Shown here: one piece after another, positions 8,700-63,347 of the stretch
Layout: the number at the start of each line of letters is the position of its first letter
Position numbering within the stretch: the first letter of the stretch is position 1
Origin: Armillaria gallica
Taxonomy: Eukaryota; Basidiomycota; Agaricomycetes; Agaricales; Physalacriaceae
DNA: 64,000 nt
Direction: 5' to 3'
Assembly: GCA_037576215.1 (NCBI GenBank)
Contig: JBANDB010000001.1
Span: 4,774,001-4,838,000 of the forward strand
The notes under the pieces: generated by a model
What the model was told of the DNA's origin: nothing
The model's database searches: none
Seen by the model: the letters and a program-made list of their open reading frames with translations, nothing else
Program-made: the position numbers and the translations under genes

Positions 8700-8958
8700 T
8701 TACTGGCTGAAAAAGCAAGTCGTAAGCTTCACGACACTACGAGATACGATGCTATACTACTCACAGGAGCGACAAGGTAATGTCACCGTTAACCTTGGCC
8801 TGGATAGCAATCTCGACCTCGAGGTTAAGGTCAAGACGGAGCTTCAAGGCTGCGGGGGGTGCAACAGCCTGACGCTCAGAGCGACCGACGATTTGTCCAC
8901 CGAGGACGGAGGAAGATTGAGTAGGTGCGAATTTGGTAGCGGTTTCTGGGGCAGACAT
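8700..8958 (-). CDS. Small KLRL-tail protein, copy 1
   Basis: Two exons: 8958-8765 and 8706-8700. The first codes MSAPETATKF, a polar region with SSSVLGGQIVGRSERQAV, then the shared tail (LKLRLDLNLEVEI ... NGDITLSLL). A phase-2 intron of 58 bases splits the codon for the final Leu, and the last exon adds only Gln and the stop, where most sisters add Glu. If the intron is kept, the donor GTGAGT gives TGA at once, so both forms end almost identically. The product is about 66 residues, with no signal peptide or hydrophobic helix. The tail alternates apolar and polar residues, as in a long beta strand followed by an NG turn and a second strand. Codons are strongly C-ending. I recognise no domain; function is unknown. 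Confidence 0.75.
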
Positions 8959-8994
8959 GTTGATACTGAAGAAACTATGCTAGGCAGGTCAGTG

Positions 8995-9002
8995 CTTTTA
9001 TA
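8995..9002 (-). promoter_or_regulatory. TATA box of KLRL copy 1
   Basis: TATAAAAG on the minus strand, about 37 bases before the ATG at 8958. The same octamer precedes most members of the family. Confidence 0.7.
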
Positions 9003-10126
9003 TGAATCCGACCCCCTGCGGACTAAGACCAGGGTAATAGCGACGGGATTCTCGCGCCGTATTGTGCGCAAACCGGGTGCCTCGTAGTAGCAACTTAACT
9101 TATTTCGGTTTCGAAGGCGAGGAAGCTGAAGTTGGAGATACGTAACACTATTCATTTCATAAAAAGCTGCGTGGAGCAGCGTTTGGTTGACACCTGTCCG
9201 CTGAAAGGTTCGAGGCCTTCGGACAAGCGGCTCGGCGTGGAATGAAACGTCCCGAGCGAGTGGGCACCGAGTCTGTTTTCGTCTTGTAAGCCTGGCCGCT
9301 TTGAAGCGATCTCTCAAGGGAATGTGAAAGGTATGGGTGTTTGTGGGTCCAGCACAAGGGTCCAGACAAGTAAATTTCTTTTCTCGGTAAGTGAGAATGC
9401 GTATCGAGGACCATCGAGTTGGTAGTAGCGACAGTAACAGTTGCCAACACGTGTAATTGACTCCAGCAACTTCTTTTGCACCAGAGTATAGGCCAGCGGC
9501 GCCTTGGGTCTGGAGTAACAATACACTTCTCTTCCGAGTCATCCGAAGGAAAGTTCCTGTATCAGGCGCCAAGTATTACTATTTCCTCTGTTGCAGAGAG
9601 ATTTGTGAAAACTGATGCCGCCCTAGGCCTTGTATTTCTCGAATTCTGATATTTACTCCCATGCGGCTGGGCCTTACATTGTCGCCATAGCATAAGTAGT
9701 TTTCGAGGAAACAGACTGTCATTGCTTCCAAGAGGCCGGATGTAGTCGGCTGAACCCGTAAGTATCACTGGCGACCTTATATTGGTCGTGAGTAGATAGA
9801 AACTCGGTAGCAAAGTTCACGTGCGCTGAATTGAAGAGTGAGTCTGCTCGCAAGTTCGCTGTAGCACAGAAGATAGTGACTAGAAAGTGCTTGGAGAGTG
9901 TGTTTGGCCGAACATTGCCGCTTCGTCATTTAGAGCTCCGCTTCAAATAGTCCGACAGCTTTTAGTCGCCGCTTGCACTCTCGCGTCGATCATCGATGCA
10001 ACGCGCTCCATTGGATTCACCTGGATCTACCTTGTAACCAGATCAGAAACTCCTCACTATCCTACGAAATTGTGCATAAGCTTCTATCAGTATACTGAGC
10101 GGCACTGAACCTCAAATTTCTTTCAG
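9003..10126. other. Intergenic; long frame judged spurious
   Basis: A 242-codon minus-strand frame (9572-8844) crosses KLRL copy 1 in another frame and has no family resemblance; I do not accept it. A CAG acceptor ends immediately before the ATG at 10127, so this stretch may contain a 5' untranslated exon of the next gene. Confidence 0.4.
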
Positions 10127-11215
10127 ATGCCCCCGTTATCTCAAGAACTCATCGAGGACATTATCGATCTCCTCAGTGACGATCGTGATTCACTCATTTC
10201 TTGCTCCTATGCCTCTAGGATATTCTATCCTCGTACCCGCATGCATCTCTTCTCTTCAGTGACGTTCTCACAATGTGGCAGCTATCGCGACCTATCTAGA
10301 GCAAGGCTTCTCGCCGAAACGCCTCTAGTTGCGATTCAAGTAAAGCATGCCCAAATCGACCATTGCACAACTATCTCTACTCTCTTCTGGCCTGCAACGT
10401 CTTCTCTGTCGTCCCTCGTTTCTTTGGATCTCAATTTCATTCGCTTTAGCGAACCCAACGATCTGCACATAGCTGTTCTCTCTCTCCCTCTTCTCAAAGA
10501 GCTAAATATCAAGCAATGCTACTTTGAAGAGTTGGGGTCGAGTATCCCGACCTTACCACCCACCAGTCCTAAGCTCGAAAAACTGTTCATTTTGTATGCG
10601 AAAGGGTCACATGTTCTACTGGATCCATTGATGTCACTCCCCAGCGTATACATGGACTCTCTCGTTCAGTTATCCTTGCAGGACCCTTCTTCGAAGACAG
10701 ACTTGAACCAATTAATTGAGTACTCGCACTGTACGTCGAAGAAGCTGGAGACTCTCTCTTTGGCGTGGATTGATCAGGGTAAGCAAATCCCAATCTTGAC
10801 TGAGAGCTCAAAATCTGATCTTGCTTTTGTAGTTGCGCATATTAAGCCTCCTACTCGACACCTTTACCTGGCGAGACTAAAGGAACTAAACATCGGAATC
10901 ATGCATGAAGAAATGAACATGAATGTCCGGGTCATGCAGTGGCTCGTGCAGTCCCTCTTACAGCCAGAGTCTCGCGGTCTACGCAGACTCACGTTACGCA
11001 TTTTCGTGAACAGGTACAACACGGGATTTTCAAGCAACGCGTGGCTGGAGGTAGATCGCATGCTGCCAAAGACCAGGATCGACATTGTTTGGGTTTGTAA
11101 AGGATTCAAGCACAGGGATTTGGATCATGCGAGTCGAGAGATGGTAAAATTAGCCAGACGCCAATTTCCGGAAGCTCACAACAGAGGAATGTTGGAGGTG
11201 ACAGTGTGCACTTGA
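10127..11215 (+). CDS. F-box-like protein with divergent leucine-rich region
   Basis: Single exon, 362 residues. The first 45 residues (LSQELIEDIIDLLSDD..SLISCSYASRIFYPRTR) form the F-box-like helix pair typical of mushroom proteins, where LPxELIxxIIDxL is followed by a Cys/Ser-rich helix and 'RxxLF'. The remainder has irregular leucine-rich segments such as LSSLVSLDLNFI and LPLLKELNIKQC. Such proteins are presumed substrate adaptors for SCF ubiquitin ligases. Unlike the other F-box genes here it lacks the N-terminal Cys motif, so it belongs to a different subfamily. A splice acceptor abuts the start codon, suggesting a leader intron. Confidence 0.75.
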   Translation: MPPLSQELIEDIIDLLSDDRDSLISCSYASRIFYPRTRMHLFSSVTFSQCGSYRDLSRARLLAETPLVAIQVKHAQIDHCTTISTLFWPATSSLSSLVSLDLNFIRFSEPNDLHIAVLSLPLLKELNIKQCYFEELGSSIPTLPPTSPKLEKLFILYAKGSHVLLDPLMSLPSVYMDSLVQLSLQDPSSKTDLNQLIEYSHCTSKKLETLSLAWIDQGKQIPILTESSKSDLAFVVAHIKPPTRHLYLARLKELNIGIMHEEMNMNVRVMQWLVQSLLQPESRGLRRLTLRIFVNRYNTGFSSNAWLEVDRMLPKTRIDIVWVCKGFKHRDLDHASREMVKLARRQFPEAHNRGMLEVTVCT

Positions 11216-12541: not shown

Positions 12542-12797
12542 ATGTCTGCCCCAGAAATTGCTACCAAATTATCTTCTCCCTCGTTCGCCTCTGGTGGACA
12601 ACAAGTCGCTGGTCGCTCCTCTAGGCAGGCTGCCGCACCCGCCAAGGAGGCTCTGAAGCTCCGTTTGGACCTGAACCTTGAGGTTGAGATTGCTATCCAG
12701 GCCAAGGTCAACGGTGATATCACCTTGTCGCTCCTGTGAGTATATGCTAATGCATTTCCTACTGACTTCACTGACTTTCTTGGTGTCTAGCTCCTAA
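12542..12797 (+). CDS. Small KLRL-tail protein, copy 2
   Basis: Exon 1 (12542-12735) codes MSAPEIATKL, a linker containing GGQQVAGRSSRQA, then KEA and the full shared tail ending NGDITLSLL. The intron starts at 12736 with GTGAGT, at the same position as in the sisters. The most likely acceptor (TAG at 12790) gives a 7-base last exon, CTCCTAA, so the protein ends LLS rather than LLE. A second acceptor four codons on would read past the family stop and add a long tail, which I consider less likely. The linker is closest to copy 5 at 53050, indicating recent duplication over 40 kb. About 66 residues; function unknown. Confidence 0.75.
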
Positions 12798-13710: not shown

Positions 13711-15258
13711 CTACTGTTCTAGGTTCCAATTGCTAAACAACCCCCACTGGTCCTCATACAGCGAGCTCCACTTATCGACCCGTATCTCCAGAATGTCTCC
13801 AACGAGAGCTCGGATATCGGCCGCTATATCACGACTAGCACCACGATCAAACTGTATTCCAATTGTTTTCAGTTGTCCTGCTTCACAGCGAGAACAAATC
13901 ATATCGAGTAGCGCAAGTCGCTCCGTCTCGGTATGACGGCGAGATTGGAGACCGAAGCAGAGGTCGAGACGGTGCAGATTGGGTAGGATCGAGGAGGGGG
14001 CGAGGGCCTCGGCAACGTTATGGCATATCCAACTAAGTTCGAGTCTGAGGTGAGAGATCGAAGAACATCCTTCCGATGAAAAAATGTCTCTCAAGGCCGA
14101 CGGCTCTTTTTCCAACATGCTGCACATACTGAAGCTCTCGAGACGACATTTCGATCGACGGAAGAAGAGGGTGATGGTGGGCAACAATTCTAACTGTGAA
14201 TCTGTGGTAGTAATCGTCAGAATTCGGAGTGCCGGTGCCGTGAGGAAGTTGAGGACATCTAAATTTGCGTTGAGCTGGCAGAGCTCCGACATAACCATCG
14301 GCGCGTCAACTGAGGCCGCCGACATCCGAGTGTTAAAGTCGAGGCGACAAGCCTGAAGTTTGGGTAGCTGGGAGAGGAGCTGGAGATCCTCCACGCAAGT
14401 AATAGGTCCGGAATAATGAGTTATACCTGACGGTAACATCACTTGATGGATCCCATGCCAGCTGGAAGATGCTTGCCATAGCTGCGGGGCCTTCAAGAAT
14501 ATGTCCGAGCAATAATCATCGGAATGATAAGTGTCGTCGACATCTAATTCGATCGACTGCAGAGCGGGAAGGTCCACTATAGATTCGAGGCGGTGTTTAT
14601 GATCCAGGACAGTGTGCATGCTCACATTCTTCCACCGATAGCAGTGTTGAACGAGCAAGGAGATGATTTCGCCATCGCTGCGATCGTTGTCTTCACAGAA
14701 GACCATCAGATTGAGAGGATGTTCGGCTGTGCGCTCGAGATAGGTCCGTAATATATGGAGAGAGCGCTCGGAGAAAGGGGACTTCACCGAGACATACCGA
14801 GCCCAGGACGCTGGGGAGGTGTGTAACATATCTCTCCAAAGTCCACAGACGCGACCTAAAACCCAAAGAGGCCCGGTCGTGTCGAGACTATCTGGGTCAT
14901 AGACATCATCCTTAAACTGCTCTTTTGCTACATCCTGCCACCAAGCGTCGCAGACAGAATGGAAGATTTCAATGAGAATATCTCGGGGGAGACGACGGAT
15001 GGGGGCATAGATGGACTCGCAATTTTTCAGTTCTCTCAAGACTGCTGGCCGATGCAACTGGATATCTTGAAGCTGGTCATCATACCAAGCCTTCAACTGT
15101 TTTAGCTTCGTAATTTCAGCATCGATAAAGGCACGATCAACATCGAGCAATGGACGTGACCCGCGTAGAAGTTCCGAAACAAGGCCATCGGAGCTCGGGT
15201 TGGGAGGGAGAAGAGACTCATTGACGAATCCGCAATTGCTGCAGGTGACGCACGTCAT
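13711..15258 (-). CDS. Zinc-ribbon F-box protein
   Basis: Single exon, 515 residues, complete. It starts MTCVTCSNCGFVN, giving the same CxxCxxC motif as its paralogues. Residues about 30-90 form a helical linker (LLRGSRPLLDVDRAFIDAEI) and residues about 95-145 the F-box (YAPIRRLPRDILIEIFHSVC, then WxLxRVCGLWRDxLHTSPASWA). The C-terminal 350 residues are irregular leucine-rich repeats that would form the target-binding surface. The gene has the same start and layout as 42882 and 49654, but the C-terminal halves diverge strongly, as expected for a family that diversifies its target recognition. Confidence 0.85.
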   Translation of the reverse strand: MTCVTCSNCGFVNESLLPPNPSSDGLVSELLRGSRPLLDVDRAFIDAEITKLKQLKAWYDDQLQDIQLHRPAVLRELKNCESIYAPIRRLPRDILIEIFHSVCDAWWQDVAKEQFKDDVYDPDSLDTTGPLWVLGRVCGLWRDMLHTSPASWARYVSVKSPFSERSLHILRTYLERTAEHPLNLMVFCEDNDRSDGEIISLLVQHCYRWKNVSMHTVLDHKHRLESIVDLPALQSIELDVDDTYHSDDYCSDIFLKAPQLWQASSSWHGIHQVMLPSGITHYSGPITCVEDLQLLSQLPKLQACRLDFNTRMSAASVDAPMVMSELCQLNANLDVLNFLTAPALRILTITTTDSQLELLPTITLFFRRSKCRLESFSMCSMLEKEPSALRDIFSSEGCSSISHLRLELSWICHNVAEALAPSSILPNLHRLDLCFGLQSRRHTETERLALLDMICSRCEAGQLKTIGIQFDRGASRDIAADIRALVGDILEIRVDKWSSLYEDQWGLFSNWNLEQ

Positions 15259-16135
15259 GAAGTCTTAAATATGGCTGTGAAGGGGTATGCCTACAGTTCG
15301 AAATAAATTAGCCTGGCAAGCCATATCATAAATACCGCGTAACTTGTACTTGTGTCACTGTAAGAAGGGAAAATTTTAAGGTAAGAAATGCACGTGGCCG
15401 CAGTGCCAGTGGCTGCTGTCACTCTCCCCGGCCTTCACCGCCTCCGTCTCTACGGCCATCTGTGATCTCAGTATGCGCAGGTCACTCATAAAAACACTAG
15501 CTTATCTAACCCCAAGTTCTGTTCTCACCCTCGGCCACATGAATGATGATTTCCATCATATGTTATCGGGAAGGCTAACTACTGCTACTAGCCTACTACT
15601 CGACCTGTAATCGATCATCAAGTTGTTGATCAAGAGCTTGCCTCTTCAAGACGATCGTTTACACTGTCTCGACTCGCGTGGCCTATGAAATCCCTGGCGA
15701 CAAGAGTTGGGACACCCGTCCTGACTCCTAATTCTTTCGGTGGGGCATACATTCTTCCTGCGTTCGATTAATGCGTACCAAACCGATGGCAACTATCCGA
15801 GAGTCTGAATATGCCATGGTAGATTATGTTCTTCGCGCCCTCGCCTATTGAATTTATCCCAACTTTTTTGAAGGAACAGTCGACCTAGAGTCACCGAGAA
15901 GATTGCATACATTGGACTACCTACCATAATACTCTTGCGCGAGAGCTTGCCAGACCGTCACCAGAGGAGCTGTTGAGGGTAAAAACGATCTGTTGTCGAC
16001 ACACATTCCGAAGCTTATCGCAGCAACGCTGAACCACTTCGCAAAGTACGTCTACATGCCTTGATTTATCCGAGAGGCGACTTGCTCATATATTACACAG
16101 AGTGCTTATTATTACTGCTTTTGCGTTTGGCCGGC
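15259..16135. other. Intergenic, decayed similarity to 20150-20480
   Basis: Parts around 15950-16050 (AGACCGTCACCAGAGG, then CAACGCTGA and CCATTTCGCAAAGTACG-like words) recur near 20180-20270, so the RING-gene duplication may once have extended this far. No intact gene. Confidence 0.4.
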
Positions 16136-17385
16136 ATGGTTTCACGACCTGTTTCACCTGCTCTCAGACATACTGGTGAGACCTACGTTGCTACGGAAGG
16201 ACGGAAGCTATCGAGCACAACACAGAATCTCATTTTCACTCTTGGTCGTCATTAATCACGCCTAGCTGCCGCCGGTCGAGGATTTACCGCCACTCAAAAC
16301 TGTGTCCAGCAGTTAGCCCCTTTTCGACGATCGCAGACGATACTTCCGTGGAATCAAAAAATGCCTCCTTTCGATCCAGTGGTAATGGATGCTGGTTTCT
16401 CCGGAGTCCATGTCTAAGACTTGGCAAAACCCGCGCATACGAACGAAAGGTATAAAATTGGTGTACTTTGCGGCATGGATCCCCACATTACAACACTTTG
16501 AACAACCAACAACCACCACCATCGAACCAAACAACAACTATCATCTATCATCATGTCTACCGATATGATATGCATGGACGGAGTGTACTGTGCGTTGTGC
16601 GACGAGTACTTCTTTGACAAGCGGCAACGAGCCGAGCACATCATGAACTCGAACGACCATCCCGAATGCTGGAGATGTGGTCGTCGATTTTTGAATGGTC
16701 AAATTCTTCGTCGCGTATGTTATTGTCTCTGTCTCCTTATTGAACCAACTAATATGTTCTCTTTATAGCATTGCGTCACTGCGCCCAATCATCACTATTG
16801 TGTGCCCTGCGACAAGCACTGCCGTACAGTGGCAGGCTTTCGCGTTCACATGGAGCAAGTTCATGGCTCCGATGATGACGACAGTGACGACGACTCCTTA
16901 GACAATGAGGATTATTATGACCTCGAAGATGGCTGGGAGGATGAAAGGGGCGAGGAGGAGTATCCCGACGAAGTCTCCGAATCAGGAGACGAGCCCCTTG
17001 ACACGTCATGGGAAGACAGCAACGAATACGATTTTGAAGACCCGGAGTATCTGAGGTTGCCGCCGTCATTTGTGAGTAGTATCTTCTCCTGTTGGTTGAC
17101 TGATCCTAATGTCGGTCTTCCAGAATTCCAATGATGCAGCAGCCGATGATGCAGAGGAGAGCGATGAAGAAGATGTCGAAGAGACGTCTCACTTCTCGTG
17201 TCCAATGTGCCAAAAAGAGCACACTACCCTCTGCGCGACTCCGTGTGGACATGTGTACTGCGTACGGTGCATTCGCGCGACGCTGAAATATACAGAGGCA
17301 TGTCCTGTCTGCGACGAACGAGCCACCGAGGACCAGCTCCGGAAGATATACAACTCCCAGGAGTGACGAAACCAAATGGCTCGGT
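16136..17385 (+). repeat. RING-gene segmental duplication, copy A
   Basis: About 1.25 kb nearly identical to 20481-21745 in direct orientation. It covers the upstream region, the TATA element, all exons and introns, and a few bases after the stop. The offset across the gene is exactly 4356 bases. Confidence 0.85.
16553..17366 (+). CDS. C2H2-like and RING-finger protein, copy A
   Basis: Three exons (16553-16714, 16769-17071, 17124-17366) give 235 residues. The N-terminal third is rich in Cys/His pairs (CALCDEYFFDKRQRAEH, ECWRCG, YCVPCDKHCRTVAGFRVH) resembling two or three C2H2-type fingers. A strongly acidic spacer follows. A C3HC4 RING (CPMCQKEH ... CGHVYCVRC ... CPVC) lies at about residues 178-222. 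RING proteins of this form usually act as E3 ubiquitin ligases; this is inferred. A TATAAAAT lies at 16451. The gene differs from copy B by only a few amino acids, and all zinc ligands are kept in both. Confidence 0.85.
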
Positions 17386-20480: not shown

Positions 20481-21745
20481 GTGATTCCACGACCTGTTTC
20501 ACCGGCAGATCGACCTTTTCTCAGACATACTGGCAAGACCTGCGTTGCTACGGAAGGACGGAAGCTATCGAGCACAACACAGAATCTCATTTTCACTCTT
20601 GGTCGTCATTAATCACGCCTAGCTGCCGCCGGTCGAGGATTTACCGCCGTTCGAAACTGTGTCCAGCAGTTAGCCCCTTTTCACCGATCGCAGACGATAC
20701 TTCCGTGGAACCAAAAATGCCTTCTTTCGATCCGGTGGTAATGGATGCTGGTTTCTCCGGAGTCCATGCCTAAGACTTGGCAAAACCCGCGCATACGAAC
20801 GAAAGGTATAAAATTGGTGTACTTTGCGGCATGGATCCCCACATTACAACACTTTGAACAACCAACAACCACCACCATCGAACCAAACAACAACTATCAT
20901 CTATCATCATGTCTACCGATATGATATGCATGGACGGAGTGTACTGTGCGTTGTGCGACGAGTACTTCTTTGACAAGCGGCAACGAGCCGAGCACATCAT
21001 GAACTCGAACGACCATCCCGAATGCTGGAGATGTGGTCGTCGATTTTTGAATGGTCAAATTCTTCGTCGCGTATGTTATTGTCTCTGTCTCCTTATTGAA
21101 CCAACTAATATGTTCTCTTTATAGCATTGCGTCACTGCGCCCAATCATCACTATTGTGTGCCCTGCGACAAGCACTGCCGTACAGTGGCAGGCTTTCGCG
21201 TTCACATGGAGCAAGTTCATGGCTCCGATGATGACGACAGTGACGACGACTCCTTAGACAATGAGGATTATTATGACCTCGAAGATGGCTGGGAGGATGA
21301 AAGGGGCGAGGAGGAGTATCCCGACGAAGTCTCCGAATCAGGAGACGAGCCCCTTGACAAGTCATGGGAAGACAGCAACGAATACGATTTTGAAGACCCG
21401 GAGTATCTGAGGTTGCCGCCGTCATTTGTGAGTAGTATCTTCTCCTGTTGGTTGACTGATCCTAATGTCGGTCTTCCAGAATTTCAATGATGCAGCAGCC
21501 GACGATGCAGAGGAGAGCGATGAAGAAGACGTCGAAGAGACGTCTCACTTCTCGTGTCCAATGTGCCAAAAAGAGCACGCTACCCTCTGCGCGACTCCGT
21601 GTGGACATGTGTATTGCGTACGGTGCATTCGCGCGGCGCTGAAATATACAGAGGCATGTCCTGTCTGCGACGAACGAGCCACCGAGGACCAGCTCCGGAA
21701 GATATATATCTCCCAGGAGTGACGAAACCAAATGGCTTGGTGGTG
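20481..21745 (+). repeat. RING-gene segmental duplication, copy B
   Basis: Direct repeat of 16136-17385. Similarity stops shortly after the stop codon, where the two copies diverge (copy B has an extra GTCGCGCGAG stretch). Confidence 0.85.
20909..21722 (+). CDS. C2H2-like and RING-finger protein, copy B
   Basis: Exons 20909-21070, 21125-21427 and 21480-21722 match copy A at identical spacing, including both introns. Differences are few: LDKSWED for LDTSWED in the acidic spacer, NFND for NSND, EHATLC for EHTTLC and AALKYTE for ATLKYTE in the RING, and IYISQE at the end. All Cys and His ligands of the N-terminal fingers and of the C3HC4 RING remain, and the reading frame is intact, so both copies look functional. 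Its TATA element at 20807 is also duplicated, so expression should be similar. Confidence 0.85.
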
Positions 21746-24727: not shown

Positions 24728-27700
24728 ATGGAGAAAGGGATGTCTATCAGAAAAAGGAGGATGACTTGTGCGTGCGATAGGTGCCGTGTAAGGAAAAGTG
24801 AGCTTTGTCTTGTTCTTGTGGTTGTTCAACTTCTGATGTTGGCGCCTTTGCTAGTAAGATGTATAACCCGTCCACTTCATCAGACCCTGAGCTAATACAA
24901 AGACTGAATTTTGAAAATGTATAGGTAATTACGCTGCTGAACAGGGAAACCGCTGCCTAAATTGCATCGCGGTCGATGTAGAGTGCACGTATAAAGCTCC
25001 AACGAAGGCAGGTTCTCCCTCAATGTAAAATGCGAAGACTTATCACAACTCTCACACAGAAACGGGGCCAAAAGCCCAAGTCAGTTTTTCCTCATCAAAT
25101 AAGCCCTGATTTCGTTGGTCCTGAGAAAGATGATGCTCCAATGTCCTCCAATTTCCAGAAACGCAAAAACAGTGCTAGGTGCGACAATTGTAAACCAGGT
25201 GCTTCAGAATACACAACTAATATCTATCCAGCTATGTGGCGAGCTTGAAACGACGTGCGGAGAAATTGGAACGTACGATCAAAGAGGTTCGGAAACAGTC
25301 AAAGTATAGCTACCCCGCAACTTTTCTCAATAATTATAGCTCAATCCGAATGCCGTCCTACCTGAAGGAAGGACAAGACGCGTGCTGGGGGTATCCTTAG
25401 AAGGAGATTCATCCCAATCTACAAGTTATACACCGTCCGAGACGCTGGCTGAAATTGACGACGACTTGGCGCACCTGGACCTTGGGGAGAAAATGAAGAA
25501 TCTGTCGTTGAAACACGACAAGGCCTTCAGCGAGAGGTGTTTCGGATCATCAAGTAGTTTGGCGCTTTTCATGAGTGCCCTTTCTACCAAAAAGAAGTTG
25601 ACGGGCAGCTTGAATACGATGCATCTGCAAGACTACTCCAATTTATATCCTGTGTGTCCTGCGTTCTCGACCAGTCAATATTTTACTGACCGGTCTTGAT
25701 GATTAGTGGGAACGGGCTACTGCCGACGCCGAGAAATCTTGCTATGTTTTTTCTGACAACGATCTTATTATGAACCTAGTCTCCATATATTTCGAAACTA
25801 TCAATCCAATCCTGCCAATCCTACATCGACCTTCATTCACGAAAGACGTCGCCAATGGGTTACATCTACGCGACGAAAATTTCGGTGGTACACTACTTCT
25901 TGTTCTAGCTGTTGCGTCGCGTTATTCCGACGACCCAAGGGTGTTGGCCGATCCAAGCTCAAGGCTTTCCGCAGGATGGAGATTCATCGTACAGGCTCCC
26001 ATCTTCAAGAAAGCGGTATTAGCCCCTCCTGGCTTGTATGAACTTCAGTCACCTGTCGTAAGTTTATTTTCTTCGTTTCTTCATCAAACTCAGAATGCCT
26101 TGGAAGCTCGGGGCGATATACTCCATGGGAACCTCCGTTCCCCAGTTTAGTTGGACAGTTATTGGGGTCGGGCTACGCGCCGCAACAGAAATCGGGTTAC
26201 ACAGACAAAAGCCCAAGGGGCATAAGCTAACGGTCAACGATGAACTCAAGAAGCGATCTTTTTGGTATCTTTATCATCCTTCGTTTTTTCGGGGGGATAC
26301 TGAGAGTCTGTGTAGGGCGCTTGTCATGCTTGACAAACTATTAAGTCTATATCTGGGACGACCTGTCATGATGCAAGAGGAAGAGTACGTTGTTGGTAGT
26401 TTACATCGCGTCTGCCGAACATTCACGTCTTGATAGCTTCGACTTGGAGCTACCAGTTGAGTGCGATGACGAGTACTGGGATATTGAGACAGATGGAGAA
26501 GTGCATTTTTGCCAACCGGCAGACAAACCTTCTAAAATCAGCTATTTCAATGCGCAAATACGGTTGAGCGGCATCATGTCGGTTGTCGTGAGGAATCTGT
26601 ATTCCATCAAGAAAGGTCGAGACATGCTGGGTCTTACCGAAAAGGATGATCGACACATCGTTGCTGACATAGATTCATCCATGAATGCTTGGATGAACTC
26701 CATTCCCGGCCATTGTATGCCTCCATTATATCTATTCAACATTTTACTAACCGCACTTTAGTACGTTGGGACCCTGACAACAACAACATGACGTTCTTGT
26801 ATCAATCAGCAGTACTGTATAACACCTATTATATGCTCCAGATCCATATCCATCGACCGTTTTTACGCACTGACTCTCCTCTGTCCGAGCCGTCACTCGC
26901 TATCTCTACGACTGCAGCCAGGTCATGCACTCGAATCCATCGAGTTTATTCGACCAGAATCAAATTCAGTGTACCCTACATTGTGGTGAGCTGAATATAT
27001 CTATTTATCGTGTTCGTTATTTAAAAGTTGGTTTAGATGGGAGCCTTCATGTCTGGCGCTGTACTAGCTATGAACATCTGGAATCGCAAACGAACGGGCC
27101 ATCCTCCGAACGCAGATGACCTGGCCGGCTTTGAACAGTGCATAGCTACCTTCATTCATGCTGCTGACACGTGCGAGTCTATTTTGTACCATCAATAAAT
27201 TAACATTGGTCCGTTGACAGGTGGAATACCGCTGGTCGTTCATTGTGAGTAAACTTTTCGAGGTATCACATTCGCACGACTAATAATGATGGCGTCTAGG
27301 AAAATGTTCAAAGGAATGGCTTCCGTTGAGACTGCTAGTCTTTTAGATAGTACTTCCATTCCCGCCACATTTGCTCAGGAAAATTTGGCTCCAGTAGTTG
27401 CTCCCGGTAGCTTTCCTTCTTTTGGTGTAAATCCTTGTTGACGAAATCAACTTTTACAGATCCAGCGTACTTGGTCAATTATTTAGCGACCCTCCCGAGC
27501 GCAGAGCCGCCCTTAGACCAGACAAATAAGGACTCATCGAGTTCGTTCCAGTCGTCATTCTTCGATATTGCAGAACCATTGCTGTCCGATGAGCTAGGCA
27601 CGATCGACATGTGGAGCTATGCCCCTCCAGGATTTAGGTGAGCCGTCACCGTTTCCCGGAAATGTTTGCTAATACGCCATGGACTTGCAGCTTCGTGGAG

Positions 27701-41869: not shown

Positions 41870-42881
41870 ATGGGCCGTAGGATTGGAGGGAGCGTATCAG
41901 ACTTTCGATTGTTGACTTCAGGTGAGATTCTTAATTGGACCCGCCGTCGTCGATCCTGACGCCTGTCTGTCAAGCACGTCGCCAGTCGACTACCCAACCT
42001 TCACTTTGCCCTTTCACAGATGTTGTCAGTTATTCGGGTTTCATGCGCGTAGTACATACCAATATCATGTGTTGCTTTTCGGGATCCATACTTTCTAAGT
42101 CACGGTCCAGCGTCCGGTCAATGGTCTATAGAAGCCCAGTATTCCACTTTGTGAGGCATGTGACACCCTTGATATTTATGACTGTCAATAGCGCGCCGTC
42201 AGAAACCAGGGCTGCGCGCTCAGTACAGCAATGTTTCGGTACAGCTATTTCGGTTGTTTGATTAGAAGGTGACTGCGAGCAGAGAGAAGGAGAAATGTTA
42301 CTAACTTTTCTCCTTGGTCCAAAGAGTATGAGCCTATGCCGAAGTAAATCATGATGCCCGAGACATGGCACCTTGCAGGTTCGTATATTTAACCGGTAGA
42401 CACGTTGTATCAGGAGCGTCGATGCAGTGAAAAACAATAAACCATCTGTCGCACAGAAATTGTCAGCGAAGGACATATTTAGCACGCTAGGTTCCCCATT
42501 TCCACAGTATCACTGGCCACGTGCAGACGTCAGGTCAACTAGCTTCATTGAATTGTCCTCGAGTGAAAACTCTGCAGAAGAACGCCAGGGAGACCGGATA
42601 AGCATGGTCATTGGAGACCAGACAAGACGGCGTTCACGGTGCCAAAAATGACAATCAACACTTTTGTAGCAGATTTATGCACGCTCCGTTGCCTGTACTT
42701 CCAGATGGCTAGCGAACTGAGGTTACCGAAGCAGATACGAGTGCAGTGCGAAAAGCGACAATGAGAAACGAGCATGAGGGTGCGGACCGGTGAGCCGGGG
42801 ATATCGCCGCGACGGCGTGACCTGAACGCTGTATTTGTCTGACCTGCGCCTTTTCGAGCTGCTTTCAGGATTCTCAACTCG
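41870..42881. other. Intergenic, nothing recognised
   Basis: Short motif-less frames only. Confidence 0.5.
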
Positions 42882-44465: not shown

Positions 44466-44655
44466 GACAGAGTTTAAATGCATCCTGATTGGTGCATAGA
44501 TGCTGCAGGCAGTTCATACGTGGTGCGGGCATCTATTCAATTTCATATATCCTCAAACCCCCATTGGTGTGATGCGGGAGGAATCTGTACGAAGTCTTCA
44601 ACTTGAACCTAGTTCAGGCATTGTGACCTCGCTAGAACCGGCGAATTTCTAGGTG

Positions 44656-46878: not shown

Positions 46879-47963
46879 AATTCTAGGGTTCTGTAGCAAT
46901 GGAACATCGCCGTACGATCATGGGATTTCTCCAAAGCATGCTGTAAGCCATACGTGCTCTGTGGGTCGACGGAGTCTTGAGTAGTCCTTAGAAAAATATG
47001 TCAACACAAAGATTCGCACCTGCAGCTGTATAAAACCGCAATCCTTCGCCTCTTGACATCCCAACACATCCCCTCCTCAATTCACTAACAATATCGACAA
47101 CTAACAATCATGTCTCAGAACTATACCTATACCGCTCAAAGTGCTGAAACTGGTTACTATATCACCAGCACCAAATGTGATAAACCCGGCCAGATCGTCG
47201 CAACAGCCGACGGTAAGGGCAGCATCCCTGAGGGCGCTGTGAGTTGTGGTTGATGTTGTTCAGGAGTAGCATCTAATACTGACCGACCTCGTCGCAGACT
47301 TTGACCTTCAATAAGGCCCTTGAGCCCTCTGGCAATACCACCGATGTCACCATCAAAGGCATCAATGGATTGTATGTCGCATTGCCTGAGGTATTTACCT
47401 TCAACCCTTCAATCGTCGACTCTTTCCAATCTCGGATGCAAACAGAACGCTGCATCCGGCAGTAAGCTCATCTGGTCTAGCGAGCCTGCAAACTGGCTGG
47501 TCGATGCCACTCAGACGGGGCCCTACGTGTAAGTCTGTGGCTATAGTCGTATCATATTTTCCGTTAAACCCACTATCTGGTCTGTCAGTATTATTCCCAG
47601 CGGCAAGGACTTGTATTGGTTTACCGGGAAGTTGAACGACGTCGACATCGGCCCAATCGTAAGTCTGTTGTCTGCCACACCTTTGCTGAGAATGCGAGTT
47701 TGAGGATTGATCGTATACAGGTCCAGGTCAAGAAGGGATCGGAGATCATTAAGAAGGAGAACGAGTGGATCCTCAACAAGGTCGACTAAGAAGAGTGCAT
47801 CAGTGCATAATCTTCAACAGTTGTTATTTTCGTTTGTACCAAGTGTTTCCAAGATTACGGTAGTGACGTGTCCGTATGAAGAGAATCGGTGCTTGTCTTC
47901 CACGTGTTTTTGTATCAGTTGGATGATTGAATTAGGCCGCGCACGATGGAAAATAGAGAGCAA
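46879..47963. repeat. Right arm of the inverted repeat
   Basis: Partner of 44656-45911. It carries the second copy of the small beta-rich gene with its own TATA element (47029-47036). Confidence 0.85.
47110..47789 (+). CDS. Small beta-rich protein, inverted-repeat copy 2
   Basis: Exons 47110-47238, 47298-47390, 47446-47528, 47589-47658 and 47721-47789 give 444 bases, 147 residues, in frame with four introns of 55-62 bases. The product is the same as that of the left-arm gene: cytosolic, about 16 kDa, one cysteine, glycine- and threonine-rich strands (GKGSIPEGA, TTDVTIKGINGLYVALPE). A beta-trefoil protein such as a lectin or peptidase inhibitor is the best guess from size and Trp spacing. The two genes are divergently transcribed from a shared 1.6 kb region. 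Confidence 0.75.
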
Positions 47964-48715
47964 ACCATTGAAAAAATCCACGGCTCCATTTGAATGGTTT
48001 TCTAGACCTCAACCTACGCGCTTACTTGATCTTCCTTGATTCGTGCCAGTCTTCAGATATAACATTCACAGAAGACGTCGAACATTCTGTTGTTGATTCG
48101 CGTAGGGCCAATGGGCGCCACCAAGTAGTCACCTGGGAAGATGAGCTCGAGATTTAAGCACTACAAGTCAATACACCTGAGCGTCACAGCCCAACATGGA
48201 ATTAGTTTCTCAGCTGCCAGTGCACCGAAAGATGGATCTTCGGCTACACGGTACTGAAATTGCTGCACTTTTCCGGGTCCAAGACCATGATAAGATGACT
48301 AGGAATAAACACCTCCTGCAATGTAGGCTGTGAATGTGACTGCAATAGAAGACGATAAGCTTCGAAGAAGGCGAATACCGATTGCTATTATCCCTCGAGG
48401 GTCATGAAGGAGTGTCCAGTATGTGCGTCGAGGAAAGCCGCCGTCGAGACAACGGCATAATGCTCACCTCTTCACGACGCCACTCTCTAGTATTGAAGTG
48501 TCCGTAAGATCGATCCTCTGCTACCGCAGTTTTGAGGACCAGTAAGATATCCAGGCTGCGCCAATTGTTCGCAATACGGATACCCACAACGAGGGACGAA
48601 ATCGTCTTGTATTCGTAATTTTCTTCCTCTTTATCGGTCACGTATCAGTCTTTGCCGGCGCTTTGAGATGGGTAGCATCGACTGCTAGCGTAGGTGTCTA
48701 GGAATTGCTGGGAGA
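47964..48715. other. Intergenic, nothing recognised
   Basis: Lies between the right inverted arm and the direct repeat upstream of the F-box gene. Motif-less frames only. Confidence 0.5.
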
Positions 48716-49540: not shown

Positions 49541-49653
49541 CACGTGTGTCTCTTGCCCTCTCAATTGACGGTTACTTGCATTCTACTATTTAGCAAGTAC
49601 GTGTGCCAGCGCGTCTTCTTCCAGCAATTTACCAAGCATTTCAGGAATCTTCA

Positions 49654-51273
49654 ATGTCGTGCCTCACCTGCAGCAACTGTGGTTTCGTCAATCTGCTTCC
49701 CCCCGGCGAGCCACATCGACAAAAAACTCTCAATGCCATTCAAAGCTCCGACGGCCTTATTTCGCAGCTTCTACGCGGGACACCGCCATTGCTCGATACT
49801 GACCGGGCCTTTATCGATACTGAAATTGCCAAACTAGAACAGCTGCGGTCTTCGTATGATACCCAGCTTCAAGATGTTCAGACACGCAAACACCCAGTCT
49901 CGAAAGCCCTCGAAAATCGCACGTCGATTTATGCCCCCATCCGTCGTCTTCCCAGAGATATTCTCATCGAAATCTTCCATTCCGTCTGCGATGATTGGAA
50001 GCGGGAAGGAGAAGAAGCGGAATGGCGCTTCAGAGACCGTTATCATAGTCTGAATGTATCTGGACCTCTATGGGGTTTAAGCCGCGTCTGTGGGCTTTGG
50101 AGACATGTGTTGCACACCTCGCCAGTGTCATGGGATCGGCACCTTTCGGTGATCTACCCATTCTCCAAGAATGCTTGCGAGATATTGGGGACCTATCTCG
50201 AGCACACGGGCGAACATCCCCTGTGTATACGTGTCAATCTGCCTCATTACACCGAAACAGGAGGTGACGAATTCATCGCGCTACTCGTCCAATCTTTCTA
50301 CCGCTGGAGGGAAGTGCACATTCACATTCCACTATCCCATGCACACCACATAGAAGCCATATCCCTTCCCCTTCCTGCTCTGCAGACAATTGAAATAGAT
50401 GTCGAAGATGAAAGTTTTCTGACTGCCACCAACTCGCACTTTCACTTGGACATGTGTTTGAATGCCCCCCAATTATGGCAAGCCACTCTTCCAAGGCAAG
50501 GGATCTTTCAAGTGAGATTACCGCCCACGATAAATCATTATTCCGGATTCATCACTCGTGCCGAAGACTTGCAACTCCTTTCCCAACTACCCAATCTCAA
50601 CACGTGTCACCTCCATTCTACTCGCATGAACTCGACTTCACTCGAAGGCCCGGTGATCCTGGCGCAGCTTTGCCGCCTTTACATTGGCGAGTTGGGCATC
50701 CTCGACTGCCTAACTACACCAATGCTCAAACATTTGACTCTAACGAAGGATCCAAGTCCCCACCCACCGAGTGGCAACGCAGGATGCATTGACCTTTTCC
50801 TCTGCCGATCGGACTGTCGTCTGGAGAGCTTGAGTGCGGACGAGTACCTACGCTGGCACGAGTCACTAGACTCAATCACCGAATTACTCTCATCAGAGGC
50901 ATGCTCTACAATTTCCCACCTCAAATCTAAGCTTGATTTGTATGACCTTTGGTGTATTCTCACCCAATCCGATGTCCTACCTAACCTACGCCATCTTGTT
51001 CTGTGCTTGTTGATGCCTGCACCCCGTATAGAATGGGAGGAAGTACCCCCTTTGATACGCTCTCGCCGTGATGCAGGGGTATTGAAAACGGTTGAACTCC
51101 AGTTTGAGGACGACGAGGAGCTAGAGATAGAGGCCGAAGAGGATGAAAGCTCGTATCCACTTTCTGAGGATGAAAAAAAAGAGAATATCAGAGCTCTCAC
51201 TGGGGACAATTTGGAGATGTGGGTCGTGAAGTGGAACTCGCCGGATTGGGAACACAGGGATATCTTTACCTAG
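49654..51273 (+). CDS. Zinc-ribbon F-box protein with acidic insert
   Basis: Single exon. By comparison with its paralogues the start is the ATG of MSCLTCSNCGFVN at 49654; the frame is open 17 codons further up (ATG at 49603). About 539 residues. The CxxCxxC motif, linker and F-box (APIRRLPRDILIEIFHSVC, then GPLWGLSRVCGLWRHVLHTSPVSW) are well kept. The leucine-rich C-terminus ends in an acidic stretch (EDDEELEIEAEEDES) not seen in the other copies. It is flanked by similar direct repeats at 48716 and 51897. Confidence 0.85.
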   Translation: MSCLTCSNCGFVNLLPPGEPHRQKTLNAIQSSDGLISQLLRGTPPLLDTDRAFIDTEIAKLEQLRSSYDTQLQDVQTRKHPVSKALENRTSIYAPIRRLPRDILIEIFHSVCDDWKREGEEAEWRFRDRYHSLNVSGPLWGLSRVCGLWRHVLHTSPVSWDRHLSVIYPFSKNACEILGTYLEHTGEHPLCIRVNLPHYTETGGDEFIALLVQSFYRWREVHIHIPLSHAHHIEAISLPLPALQTIEIDVEDESFLTATNSHFHLDMCLNAPQLWQATLPRQGIFQVRLPPTINHYSGFITRAEDLQLLSQLPNLNTCHLHSTRMNSTSLEGPVILAQLCRLYIGELGILDCLTTPMLKHLTLTKDPSPHPPSGNAGCIDLFLCRSDCRLESLSADEYLRWHESLDSITELLSSEACSTISHLKSKLDLYDLWCILTQSDVLPNLRHLVLCLLMPAPRIEWEEVPPLIRSRRDAGVLKTVELQFEDDEELEIEAEEDESSYPLSEDEKKENIRALTGDNLEMWVVKWNSPDWEHRDIFT

Positions 51274-53049: not shown

Positions 53050-53306
53050 CTACTCACTATACACGCCCGCCAACAGTCAGCCATGGTCACGGACGACACA
53101 TCAAGAAATACTCACAGGAGCGACAAGGTGATATCACCATTGACCTTGGCCTGGATGGCGATCTCCACCTCGAGGTTGAGGTCAAGGCGCAGCTTCACAG
53201 ATGCGGGGGGTGCAACGGCCTGCCTGTTAGAGCGGCCAGCAACCTGCTGTCCACCGGCAGCGAAAGAGGGAGAAGAGAACTTGGTAGCGGTTTCTGGGGC
53301 AGACAT
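53050..53306 (-). CDS. Small KLRL-tail protein, copy 6
   Basis: Exon 1 (53306-53116) codes MSAPETATKFSSPSF, the GGQQVAGRSNRQAV linker and the tail in the form VKLRLDLNLEVEI ... NGDITLSLL. The intron starts GTGAGT and ends TAG at 53057; the 7-base last exon T-GAG-TAG adds Leu-Glu. About 65 residues. Its linker groups it with copy 2 at 12542, so this subtype also has distant members within the window. Confidence 0.8.
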
Positions 53307-54250: not shown

Positions 54251-54326
54251 TCTTGCTCCTCCAAGGAGGCGCTGAAGCTCGGACTCGACCTCAATTTCAA
54301 AAGTGCATTACACTCTTTCGCTCTTG
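54251..54326 (+). pseudogene. Relic of a KLRL-tail gene
   Basis: The plus strand reads KEALKLGLDLNF, equivalent to the first half of the tail, and then jumps to sequence resembling the final ITLSLL region, followed by a GTAAG donor as in the live genes. The middle of the tail (EVEI to NGD) is missing, and no start codon or N-terminal part can be found. It is clearly a decayed member. Confidence 0.65.
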
Positions 54327-54885: not shown

Positions 54886-55145
54886 TTACTCACTACAATC
54901 ATAATTTAGCGGCGAAGTCCACTGCGAGAGAACGAATGGTCCACTTACAGGAGCGAGAGGGTGATGTCACCATTAACCTTGGCTTGGATGGCGATTTCGA
55001 CCTCCAAGTTAAGGTCCAACCTGAGCTTCAACGCCGCCTTGGGGGCGACAGCTCCAGCGCCGACACGAGCGGTCAGCTGGCCGTCCCTAGCATCGGCTTC
55101 AGCAGTAGCTCCGAGAACAGACATACGAGTTTGAGCAGCAGACAT
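54886..55145 (-). CDS. Small KLRL-tail protein, copy 7
   Basis: Exon 1 (55145-54949) codes MSAAQTRMSVLGATAEADAR, a divergent linker (LTARVGAGAVAPKA) and the full tail ending NGDITLSLL. The donor is GTAAGT, again placing a stop (TAA) in frame if the intron is kept. The acceptor at 54893 (TAG) gives a 56-base intron, and the last exon T-GAG-TAA adds Leu-Glu. About 67 residues. The N-terminal part differs almost completely from the other subtypes while the tail is unchanged, so selection acts on the tail. Confidence 0.8.
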
Positions 55146-57708: not shown

Positions 57709-57963
57709 CTATTCGCTGATAAACCAATAAGCCTCGAGTCAAAGCGAACATTAAATGCGAAGCTTCAAGAGTTCAAGTACTCACAGCAGTGAAAGGGTGA
57801 TGTCACCATTAATCTTGGCCTTGATAGTTAGGTCGACCTCGAGGTTCAGGTCTAACCTAAGCTTTAAAGCTTCCGCTCCACCCACTTCGCTGATCATATC
57901 CTGATCTTGAAAGGGAAAATTGGGTGCGCCAAGGATAGAGGCGTACAGAGCTGGTTCAGACAT
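57709..57963 (-). CDS. Small KLRL-tail protein, copy 8 (divergent)
   Basis: Exon 1 (57963-57785) codes MSEPALYASILGAPNF, a unique acidic linker (QDQDMISEVGGAEA), and a slightly changed tail: LKLRLDLNLEVDLTI, then KINGDITLSLL. The intron (GTGAGT at 57784, CAG at 57716) is 69 bases and the last exon C-GAA-TAG adds Leu-Glu. About 61 residues. It is the most diverged complete member, and the substitutions (E to D, I to L, Q to K, V to I) all keep the alternating pattern. I chose the MSEP start because the codon upstream in frame is TTG, not ATG. Confidence 0.8.
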
Positions 57964-60048: not shown

Positions 60049-61001
60049 TGGTGATGTTCCCTGTTCCCAGAAACGTGTATAGACTGCATCTACGCACTAA
60101 CGGCCTATCATTTCTTGTACCTCTACAATCTCTCACGGTAATCTCGATTCGATTTGCACTCTAGGAAGTCTGCCCCCGTTGCATCTCCATCTGGATAAAT
60201 ATTCCACTTACTATTCCCGTATTCTGCCACGGTACCGAAAATGGCGCCCGGGTCCTCTGAAGTCACAAGCGGAGACGCAGGCGAGCATGTCAGTCTATAA
60301 AGGGGGAACTTGAAAATTGAAACCGCAATAGCACAAGAGACTAAAGGAACGCGACAAAGGCACATGAACGATGTGATATTATTCGGAAAGAAGTAAAGAA
60401 GGAAGATGGCACGTGCAGTAATGTACCTCGACAAAAAATAGGCCTCGGAAGTTGATGCAAGGTGGTCACTATGGCACAATAATAGCTGGATCAGATAAAT
60501 TTATGAGGGTTATGATGTGCGTGCGGTTATGCGTGCGTTTAGATTAGATTATGGCAACGGGGCGATCCGGCCTGCCTATTGAGAAAGACGAAACCCTGAG
60601 TCAAAGAACCCCGTGCTCTCTTTGTTTTTCTTCGATACCCAGGTAAATAACTCGTTTTCTCGGGAACTTTGTATTCTTTTGGAGAACCTTCTCGGATAGT
60701 TTGAATGCGCGTCCAGACTCCAACTTCAGATACATTCCATACATCGCATTGAGCCGAAATCTCTATATTTGCTACTTGGTCTTCAATCGCGGAATGGAAT
60801 GTAACGCATGGGGTAACTTGAATTATTGCTTGGAGTTTTCTACCATTTCAAACTGTGCTTTACGTACCGCGCGTTTGGTACTCCTGCTCCTCCAGCATTA
60901 ATCAAACTCTTAGGAATGACGACGCACCCGGTTTCCAGATGCCGCTCCAGTAACGCTGCTCCAACCCCCTCGTTTTCAACGTATGCGGGTATATCCCCGC
61001 G
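60049..61001. other. Intergenic, fragments only
   Basis: Open stretches around 60123-60330 on the minus strand (NSKWNIYPDGDATGADF) look coding-like and may belong to the uncertain gene at 59328-60048. No complete structure was found. Confidence 0.35.
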
Positions 61002-61009
61002 TATAAAAG
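61002..61009 (+). promoter_or_regulatory. TATA box of KLRL copy 9
   Basis: TATAAAAG 49 bases before the ATG at 61058. Confidence 0.7.
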
Positions 61010-61057: not shown

Positions 61058-61331
61058 ATGTCTGCTCAACCCGCTACCCAATACGCTACTGCCGAGAACA
61101 CCACCTTCGCTGGTGAAAACCAGGTCGGTCAAGCCACCAACCGAAGCCTCGGGCGTGGTGGTGTTGGGAAGCAAAAGGAGGCTCTCAAGCTCAGGTTGGA
61201 CCTCAACCTCGAGGTCGAGATCGCCATCCAGGCCAAGGTCAACGGCGACATCACCCTCTCCCTCTTGTAAGTCCAATTGTCCTGTTCATTCTGCGTTTGA
61301 ATTTGGGTCTGACTTCTCGTTCAGGGAGTAA
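61058..61331 (+). CDS. Small KLRL-tail protein, copy 9
   Basis: Exon 1 (61058-61266) codes MSAQPATQYATAENTTF, a longer linker (GENQVGQATNRSLGRGG), then VGKQKEA and the tail ending NGDITLSLL. The intron starts GTAAGT at 61267 and ends CAG at 61324; the 7-base last exon G-GAG-TAA adds Leu-Glu. About 71 residues. The GKQKEALKLRL junction is the same as in the seven-helix membrane protein, linking that protein's tail to this subtype in particular. Confidence 0.8.
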
Positions 61332-63057
61332 ATCCTCCAAGGGCCAATTGCTTGAATTGAGCGCACCCGTCGGGATACAGGTTAGTTCTCGCGACGTTTT
61401 CCGTTCGCATTTGGCGTCGAAACTTACCAACGTTGTAGAACTGTTGTCAAGAATCTCTGTTAGCCGGACTTGTTCACGTCGTTACCTCGATACAATATTA
61501 CCATCCATTCATATCTTTACTTTTCCCCTTCGCCAGATTGCTTCCTATGCTTCCATTCTCTTCTTCCCAGTTTCTCTTTTTGTAAATTTCTCAATTCATA
61601 TCAATTATCGAGTCGTACGGCTTTTATGTTGAATATCAGTGTTGCTCCATGTTCAAATATTCTTGCATATTCACCTTAATATCTGAATAACGTTTGAATT
61701 GATTGCGGCCACGCACGAGAAGCCATTTTGATACGATCAAAGAACCAGACCCAGTCGACCAGAGTAGAGCAATCCTCACAAAGGCGCTAGCAAAGAGCAG
61801 TAGTTATAGGCATGAAAGGCAAGGAGAAACTTTGTTTCAAAGTAATGAATGACCGATACACGAGTCCACTCAAGGATTTTATAAGGAAGTTCAAGAACCG
61901 AGTGAAATGAGCGCGACAAATGCTCTGATTAAACTTTCCGTTCGCTCTTGTCAATTAGGGTGTGGCATACTGAGATAAATGCGGGAAAAAGCGCCAAGTC
62001 GCGAGGAAGGAAGGCCAGGTAACTGCATCCATCGTAACTGAAAACCATCGTGGATATCGTGGCAAGAGCAGTCAAGAGTGCCGGCGTGAGTTCCGATTCG
62101 ATCCGACCTTCCATAAACAGCTCAAGATTTTTGATCGCACAGTACGCCTACACGACGGGTTTCGCGGGTGAGGTCACGGCTCATCTCTCATAGACCTTTG
62201 GATTAACGATAAGCCGTCAACGTGCTGTATGTACATCGTCGTAACACGTCCTATTCAAGCGCTAATATTTCAATGGTCAATTGTCCCGGCCCGTTGCCAA
62301 TAGAATCATACCCACTCTTTCCGGCTCCGCTGCTTCAAAAACACCGTTTTCCCGAATACCCCGTTCTCAACCACACCTCCCAAATACGAGACACCACCGC
62401 TTTTGTCGTACATATTTCTTTTGAGACACGTTTTTGTTGCCTTTCTCCATCAGACTTCGAGACTCGAGGCCACAACCCCAGTCCGAACCTGCCGACACGC
62501 GCTAGACGCCACGCTGGTTGAATGATTCCGTCACCTTTTTCACCGCCAATCCGCCTCCTTAATTGACGCCACAACTTACGCCACGCTTGGTCTAGGCGCT
62601 GCGTTGTTACCCCGCGCCACTTACTCTTTCTATTCTGATGCGTAGCATCTCAGTCATTGGATGGCTTCCTTTCCTCCGGCATCCAATAAGCTACTGTCTC
62701 CCTAGAGACATGCAAGTCGAGGTCGCTCTAGGAGGGGGAAAAACGACACATGATCACTGTGCAATCTTCCAGGTTTCGCTGTCGAACTCTGATTTACCCT
62801 CGTTTTTTGGTGGTACCTCGAATCGAAGGAAACGTTGCCTGCGTACGATCACATCGCATTGGTAACGGCTTTCGGACCGCGAAGGAAAAGGTTCCGCCAA
62901 GTAGGTTCCTCCGCGCCGTCGCAACTCTCACCCAGTCCCCCCTGTACCGCAGGTTGCTCTGATTTTGTTTTGATTAGGCAAAGCGAAGGTCGCCATGCCG
63001 CACGGTAGCGAAAAACACTTGACAGCAATATAACCCATCTCTGCAAGGCTCGCCGTG
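61332..63057. other. Intergenic, nothing recognised
   Basis: 1.7 kb of motif-less sequence. A pyrimidine-rich part lies at about 61500-61590. Confidence 0.45.
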
Positions 63058-63065
63058 TATAAAAG
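63058..63065 (+). promoter_or_regulatory. TATA box of KLRL copy 10
   Basis: TATAAAAG 36 bases before the ATG at 63101. Confidence 0.7.
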
Positions 63066-63100
63066 ACTTGCCCATTTCGCTGGAAGTCCTCATTCCAACA

Positions 63101-63347
63101 ATGTCTGCCCCACAAACCCAATTCGCACCCGCCAAGTCTTCCTCTGTCCTCGGTGGACAGATCGTTGGCCGCTCTGAGCGCCAGGCTGTTGCCCCTCCCG
63201 CAGCCTTGAAGCTCCGTCTTGACCTCAACCTTGAGGTTGAAATCGCCATCCAGGCGAAGGTCAACGGTGACATCACCCTCTCTCTCCTGTGAGTGATTTG
63301 ACCAGAGTTGCGCGTCCTCGTCCTAATTTTTCTCTCGCAGCGAGTAA
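63101..63347 (+). CDS. Small KLRL-tail protein, copy 10
   Basis: Exon 1 (63101-63288) codes MSAPQTQFAPAK, the SSSVLGGQIVGRSERQAV linker and the tail ending NGDITLSLL. The intron (GTGAGT...CAG, 63289-63340) and 7-base exon C-GAG-TAA add Leu-Glu. About 64 residues. It is nearly the same as copies 1 and 4, which lie 54 and 22 kb away on the opposite strand. Members of one subtype are thus scattered rather than in tandem, separated by unrelated genes. Confidence 0.8.

Follow-up and report, generated by a model that had tools for sequence, protein, structure and literature searches.

A strongly conserved, alternating C-terminal tail shared by about seventy small genes and a predicted membrane-protein gene of Armillaria gallica

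What does a protein tail do that is kept almost unchanged on some seventy short proteins whose remaining parts differ? The question is raised by a stretch of 64,000 nucleotides of the Armillaria gallica genome (contig JBANDB010000001.1, positions 4,774,001 to 4,838,000, referred to below at its full length as the window), in which a sequence-only reading had reported a dispersed family of ten tiny genes ending in one near-invariant, strictly alternating tail. We describe here the genes that carry this tail, their promoters and a membrane-protein gene to which the tail is fused, and we tentatively propose, judging from sequence, that the tail is a C-terminal beta-strand assembly module.

The tail and its conservation

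All ten small genes were found intact where the sequence-only reading had placed them, its intervals taking in a short intron and the last mini-exon, and a six-frame reading of the window yielded one more tail copy at 36697-36783 on the reverse strand. The 28-residue tail LKLRLDLNLEVEIAIQAKVNGDITLSLL is identical in eight of the ten genes; the tail of the gene at 53.1 kb deviates at the first residue only and that of the gene at 57.8 kb at five residues. The single relic, announced near 54251, is real but weak: on the forward strand, within the degenerate copy at 54263-54326, positions 54263-54301 read KEALKLGLDLNFK (E 0.014) and TLSLL stands at 54312 in a different frame. The picture of a ten-gene family in 55 kb holds for the ten genes, but it missed the eleventh tail and the extent of the family, since the genome (86 Mb, 28 contigs) contains at least 76 tail places at E<=1, a lower bound. 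Fifty-six of them are on contig 1, four each on contigs 7, 17 and 18, two each on contigs 9 and 13 and one each on contigs 4, 5, 8 and 11. Whole tails number 72; this count includes the membrane-protein fusion, a copy on contig 11 (C11) and two copies without a start codon in the open frame (C1_4883875 and C18_618671), and omits the four places at which the hit does not end in SLL (C1_5150202, C4, C5 and C7_2360560).

The near-invariant tail on differing short N-termini, which had been claimed for the window, is borne out across the genome. In 41 of the 72 whole tails the amino acid sequence is identical, and all 41 differ in their DNA, on average at 9.9 of 84 bases. The pooled pN/pS over the 72 tails (2556 pairs) is 0.14, far below the value of 1 that would have spoken against protein constraint. 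Among 20 close copies of equal length and one N-terminal type, the tail has a pN/pS of 0.047, whereas N-terminal codons 2-34 have one of 0.25. Strong purifying selection thus appears to act on the tail as a protein. The selection is felt on both faces of the putative strand: the alternation of apolar and polar residues is unbroken, the fixed polar positions keep K in 70, R in 70, D in 68, N in 70, E in 69 and E in 67 of the 72 tails, and the G-D pair is invariant (72/72). The beta hydrophobic moment of the consensus tail is 2.95, to be compared with 0.55 (sd 0.41) in shuffled sequences, none of which reached it in 5000 trials. Even the distant copy on contig 8, with 46% identity over its match, has a moment of 2.86, reached by 0 of 5000 shuffles. 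Because this alternation lies far above that of shuffles, and because a genome search with the full 31 residues gave E-values down to 2.5e-12, the tail is not due to chance.

The N-terminal parts fall into about a dozen types when sorted by eye. The most distant tails, one on contig 8 and two on contig 17, follow N-termini that are long and charged or Ser-rich. Candidates for an older form of the family are a few diverged tail proteins (L012 at C1:4838577, L044 at C8:3490512 and L048 at C17:877249 and 881398) that do not belong to the main types and have a long N-terminus rich in Ser or Arg.

Homologues exist beyond the locus, elsewhere in the genome as well as in other species. Protein searches gave 168 matches at E<=1 and 557 at E<=10, of which the best 120 were examined in either case, the 437 weaker ones being left unplaced. 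Among the matches listed, all named relatives come from Armillaria, Desarmillaria or Guyanagaster (12 named species), the group for which the term armillarioids is in use (PMC7830283). In viral and prokaryote collections the tail patterns matched 37 and 13 stretches, respectively, with no relative among them. Other fungi may possess alternating tails of a similar kind.

No named domain had been recognized in the tail, and the database searches agree. One small protein scanned against Pfam matched no family at E<=0.1, NCBIfam had no match for any of four tail or membrane proteins and only a spurious one below the cut-off for the form on contig 8, and a search of the PDB by sequence gave one chance match (E 0.94) for a small protein and none for the profiles of the tail and of the membrane protein. 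The tail letters and six locus-tag stems were not found in the literature searched, and topic searches led to no description of the tail family.

Gene structure and promoters of the tail genes

In 71 of the 72 tails the final Leu codon is interrupted after two bases by a phase-2 GT donor, and in 66 of the 72 this donor spells an in-frame TAA or TGA. The apparent stop after TLSLL therefore sits in a likely splice donor, and after splicing the protein is predicted to be longer by one or two residues. A strict branch-point rule found an acceptor for 57 of the 72 tails; of the 15 without one, three, all of them window genes, were given an acceptor by hand. In 56 of the 57 the spliced frame stops one or two residues on, with the ends LE (43), LQ (5), LD (2) and LK, FE, LS, LSE, FA and FR (one each). 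The copy on contig 11 has no GT donor, and its frame runs on with no stop in the stretch read. The public protein P0001 is identical to the spliced product of the 8.9 kb gene and ends in SLLQ, and several other public proteins end in SLLE; many listed public models lack the short predicted end and continue past the tail with residues that differ. The CaaX box of lipopeptide mating pheromone precursors occurs at none of these 56 ends. With the donor retained at 71 of 72 tails, the copies arose by DNA duplication and not by retroposition.

In 39 of the 57 places the acceptor is followed at 35-90 bases by a second donor-like site, compared with 10.1 in plain shuffles, and 29 of the 39 sites are at 57-59 bases. 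This enrichment makes an intron in the 3' untranslated region likely. In most tail genes the second site stands about 50 bases past the predicted stop, for example after 41869, and with this spacing the spliced transcripts would come close to the limit that usually applies to nonsense-mediated decay, with intron-retaining transcripts beyond it.

On the forward strand of the window, the small tail genes lie at 12542-12797 (66 residues, intron 12736-12790, TATA box at 12496, predicted end SLLS), 32102-32364 (intron 32299-32357, TATA box at 32059), 41658-41869 (51 residues, intron 41807-41862, TATA box at 41616), 61058-61331 (71 residues, intron 61267-61324, TATA box at 61002) and 63101-63347 (64 residues, intron 63289-63340, TATA box at 63058). 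In the gene at 32.1 kb two AGs stand close together: the first, chosen by the strict rule, gives the end SLLSE, and the second, used for the intron coordinates here, gives SLLE. The gene at 61.1 kb is of the GVGKQKEA type. On the reverse strand are the genes at 8700-8958 (66 residues, intron 8707-8764, predicted end SLLQ, TATA box at 8995-9002), 40427-40673 (63 residues, intron 40434-40488, TATA box at 40711), 53050-53306 (65 residues, intron 53057-53115, TATA box at 53351), 54886-55145 (67 residues, intron 54893-54948, TATA box at 55192) and 57709-57963 (61 residues, the most diverged in the window, intron 57716-57784, TATA box at 57997); the acceptors of the first, fourth and fifth of these were picked by hand. 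The genes at 40427 and 41658 are divergent partners, an arrangement that is common among close neighbours: among pairs less than 1.5 kb apart 9 of 10 are head-to-head, and among wider-spaced neighbours 7 of 56. The copies had been thought to be dispersed among unrelated genes, which is so locally, but the close pairs are ordered in this way and many copies share promoter signals.

These signals were counted at 71 starts, of which those of the membrane fusion and of C17_1218053 are doubtful. The sequence TATAWA occurs 25-70 bases before the start in 58 of the 71 copies, most often at 43, compared with 1 of 355 control stretches, and all ten small genes of the window have it. Counting of k-mers found AGGCACCC in 33 of the 71 promoters (0.7 expected), and GAGGCACCCGA with at most one mismatch is present in 31 (0.5 in shuffles), both controls being shuffles in two-base blocks. 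In 30 of these 31 promoters the element has the same orientation and lies 109-167 bases before the start; in the remaining one the site is that of a head-to-head neighbour. When 12 promoters chosen for carrying the element were aligned without gaps, columns 12-13 (TT) had identities of 0.83 and 1.00 and the flanks of 0.34 and 0.28, only the columns beyond the first ten bases being informative and the flanks perhaps underrated. In the window the element reads GAGGCACCCGGTTTG at 9069-9083 on the reverse strand and GAGGCACCCGACCTA at 41542-41556 on the forward strand, where the first 11 bases are exact; a possible weak site with two mismatches in 11 is at 60921-60935 on the forward strand.

Genome-wide, GAGGCACCCGRNTTR has 25 exact sites, and the reversed control has 0. 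By their coordinates, 22 of the 25 precede tail places, which lie on contigs 1, 9, 11, 13, 17 and 18; two of the other three sites are copies of one repeat, and none of the three has a tail gene behind it. The combination of GAGGCACCCGRNTTR and TATAAAAG 40-90 bases apart occurs at 18 sites of the genome, all 18 before tail genes, with 0 in the control. As the element was derived from the tail copies, its presence there is partly circular, while its scarcity elsewhere is not: in this genome the element is near-private to the tail genes. Copies that share it are probably expressed together. Nothing convincing emerged from known promoter elements in the 71 promoters, namely STRE (28, 28.4 expected), CRE (7, 11.1 expected), GATA (19, 30.5 expected), CCAAT (27, 31.3 expected) and HSE-like sites (18, 11.1 expected, sd 3.2).

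The membrane-protein fusion and neighbouring genes

The eleventh tail of the window belongs to a gene for a predicted multi-pass membrane protein at 36629-38804 on the reverse strand, whose first exon is unmapped. It is composed of a 505-residue frame at 36667-38184 and of a frame at 38145-38804 (both on the reverse strand), and the tail at 36697-36783 is followed by an intron at 36636-36697, giving the predicted end SLFA. The A. gallica counterpart P0121 has 727 residues and is 97% identical. The tail follows PIxTxG(A/T) in P0121, P0122 and P0124-P0127, from six Armillaria species, and in P0123; P0121, P0122 and P0124-P0126 end in SLFA as predicted, P0127 ends in SLLSS and P0123 reads through the donor. 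Eight paralogues, P0128-P0135, whose named members come from Armillaria, Desarmillaria and Guyanagaster, share the membrane and disordered regions with the fusion but continue differently after PIxxxG, with a C-terminus of their own and no beta tail. An unfused paralogue of this kind is present in the same genome at C6:2462068-2464547. Fifteen more distant homologues (P0138-P0153 less P0148, from Mycena and others) have no tail in their last 110 residues, and P0148 was matched solely via a tail of its own.

By its sequence, a duplicated membrane-protein gene in Armillaria thus carries the tail in place of the C-terminus of its paralogue. The captured piece resembles the GVGKQKEA type represented by the 61.1 kb gene; DNA similarity to copies of this type begins eight codons before the tail and ends near the donor. 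Because the paralogues are tail-less, the direction of transfer was probably from a small gene to the membrane protein. In the six fused orthologues the mean pairwise identity is 0.946 for the tail, 0.829 for the membrane part, 0.763 for the disordered part and 0.779 for the last 60 residues before the tail. Hydropathy agrees with a multi-pass protein and does not fix the number of spans; the AlphaFold2 model of the fusion (mean pLDDT 38) places, with low confidence, seven long helices between residues 16 and 272.

Other sequences of the window are repeated as well. F-box-like genes, with a PRDILIEIF motif seen by eye, are at 13711-15264 on the reverse strand and at 42843-44465 and 49594-51273 on the forward strand. 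In Pfam three of the genes have an F-box match that stays below the cut-off, and a fourth has none. Of 467 candidates 83 were scored, and 34 close relatives were found, including those of the window: 24 on contig 1, amplified among tail genes, and 10 on contig 10, without tail genes. Two diverged gene copies with 80-87% DNA identity in matched pieces, at 25681-27178 and 34095-35609, lie inside the tail-gene cluster and look by eye like a fungal zinc-cluster transcription factor. A repeat at 16139-17134 and 20496-21490, its copies 4.36 kb apart and 92-99% identical in matched pieces, is followed in both places by near-identical 121-residue frames with a zinc-finger match below the Pfam cut-off. 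An inverted repeat of 1020 bases at 44635-45654 and 46967-47986 (99% complementary, 1312 bases apart, with a 207-residue frame in between) is possibly a recent mobile element.

Possible roles of the tail

The unbroken alternation, the polar side that is as fixed as the apolar one and the fact that, in the resolved copies, at most a mini-exon follows fit a strand that serves either in beta assembly or in docking; polar and apolar positions fixed alike are to be expected if both faces of the strand are in contact with something. If that something is another tail, as in the assembly module that we tentatively favour, tail copies would pair edge to edge and so join about seventy short, apparently disordered proteins in one assembly. 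Solubility or partners would be determined by the variable N-termini, the many gene copies would raise the dose, and the fused membrane protein may anchor or trigger assembly at the membrane. This scheme supposes that the tail has other tails, and no unrelated protein, as its partners and that the small proteins are cytosolic and disordered. A bolder form of it, which we regard as doubtful, is a receptor-coupled system unlike any described, in which co-regulated tail proteins would form a homotypic sheet or gel and the membrane protein with the swapped tail would plug a signal in.

Several results weigh against self-assembly. The AlphaFold2 model of a small protein, built from 32 sequences, has no secondary structure by DSSP, and the hairpin with an NG turn that had been suggested is not seen in this monomer, although a monomer model tells little about fibres. 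AlphaFold2 draws the tail of the fusion as a helix, mostly with pLDDT below 50. In-register parallel stacking would pile up seven like charges, and a charge-register model of antiparallel self-pairing through salt bridges, attractive by eye, was rejected, 18629 of 20000 permutations reaching its value, as expected by chance. The upstream element is missing, at more than one mismatch, from 40 of the 71 copies. Finally, a conserved partner other than the tail itself would explain the constraint about as well. In the model of the small protein (mean pLDDT 61.6, pTM 0.20) the tail has pLDDT of about 70-82, and such moderate confidence without pairing fits an orphan strand and equally a poor model; pLDDT below 50 in residues 6-29 is the only computed hint of N-terminal disorder. 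Insertion of the small proteins into membranes, the other role that had been proposed, finds no support in their hydropathy: none of the four proteins tested has a hydrophobic 19-residue window. The same observation, made by hydropathy and not with a dedicated predictor, bears on whether the small proteins have an N-terminal signal peptide for secretion.

The alternative that fares best, although we consider it somewhat unlikely, is that the tail is a docking strand which adds itself to a sheet of a conserved partner by beta-augmentation. The small proteins would then be soluble adaptors or decoys, and the fusion would recruit the same partner to itself. A short segment of near-total invariance, kept in the fused copy and modelled with moderate confidence without a paired strand, is what such a mechanism would leave; on the other hand no partner is indicated, and burial between like strands would account at least equally well for the fixation of both faces.

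It is also conceivable, if rather improbable, that the tail is a functional amyloid signalling motif, nucleated by the fusion and polymerised by the small proteins. As with the fungal motifs of this kind (HRAM/HET-s, PP, sigma and PUASM; PMC9815663), a short strand-forming motif is common to large receptor-like and small proteins of the same cluster and is C-terminal in the small ones. The alternation and the invariant G-D pair recall a set of amyloid-like motifs in Agaricomycetes NLR proteins with a C-terminal G[DN] pair, reported in the same survey, the main text of which does not mention Armillaria (PMC9815663). The tail family differs in its fixed charged face, in its roughly seventy copies and in a multi-pass membrane fusion in place of an NLR. 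It matches no Pfam family, the survey's own profiles not having been compared, and no NLR partner was seen, NLR genes as such not having been searched. The splice donor after 71 of 72 whole tails (four of the 76 places left out), with a stop at most two residues on where resolved, speaks against a position in front of an NLR, and the seven like charges would stack in parallel register. Membership in the known motifs fails on sequence; the mode of action may be alike.

The MSDIN-type cyclic peptide precursors of mushrooms are likewise encoded by many tiny genes that are alike at their start and at their end. Unlike these and dikaritin-like precursors, the tail proteins have no hypervariable core (the N-terminal pN/pS of 0.25 in the 20 copies), and their best-conserved part makes up nearly half of the protein.

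There is little to recommend the idea that the F-box-like proteins, whose genes share arrays with the tail genes, recognize the tail as a degron. One 10-kb stretch contains two repeat units, 4.4-5.1 kb long, with one F-box-like and one tail gene in each, and on contig 1 a tail copy is found within 5 kb of 21 of the 24 F-box-like genes that belong to this subfamily; within the arrays, however, proximity does not exceed chance (18 of 52 lie within 2.5 kb, compared with 21.8 expected), the ten F-box-like genes on contig 10 have no tail place there, and the F-box assignment itself stays below the Pfam cut-off or is absent. That the tail is merely a repeat, selfish or retroposed, and has no role as a protein, which high copy number and clustering might suggest, is hardly credible in view of the conserved donor and is contradicted by the strong purifying selection.

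Even if the tail does not assemble, it defines a large, strongly selected family that is poorly served by automatic annotation and has no name in Pfam and NCBIfam. If it does assemble, the armillarioid fungi would own a private polymer or scaffold made from about seventy tiny genes, and a single gene fusion would have wired this scaffold to a membrane protein, a natural experiment in how assembly motifs spread.

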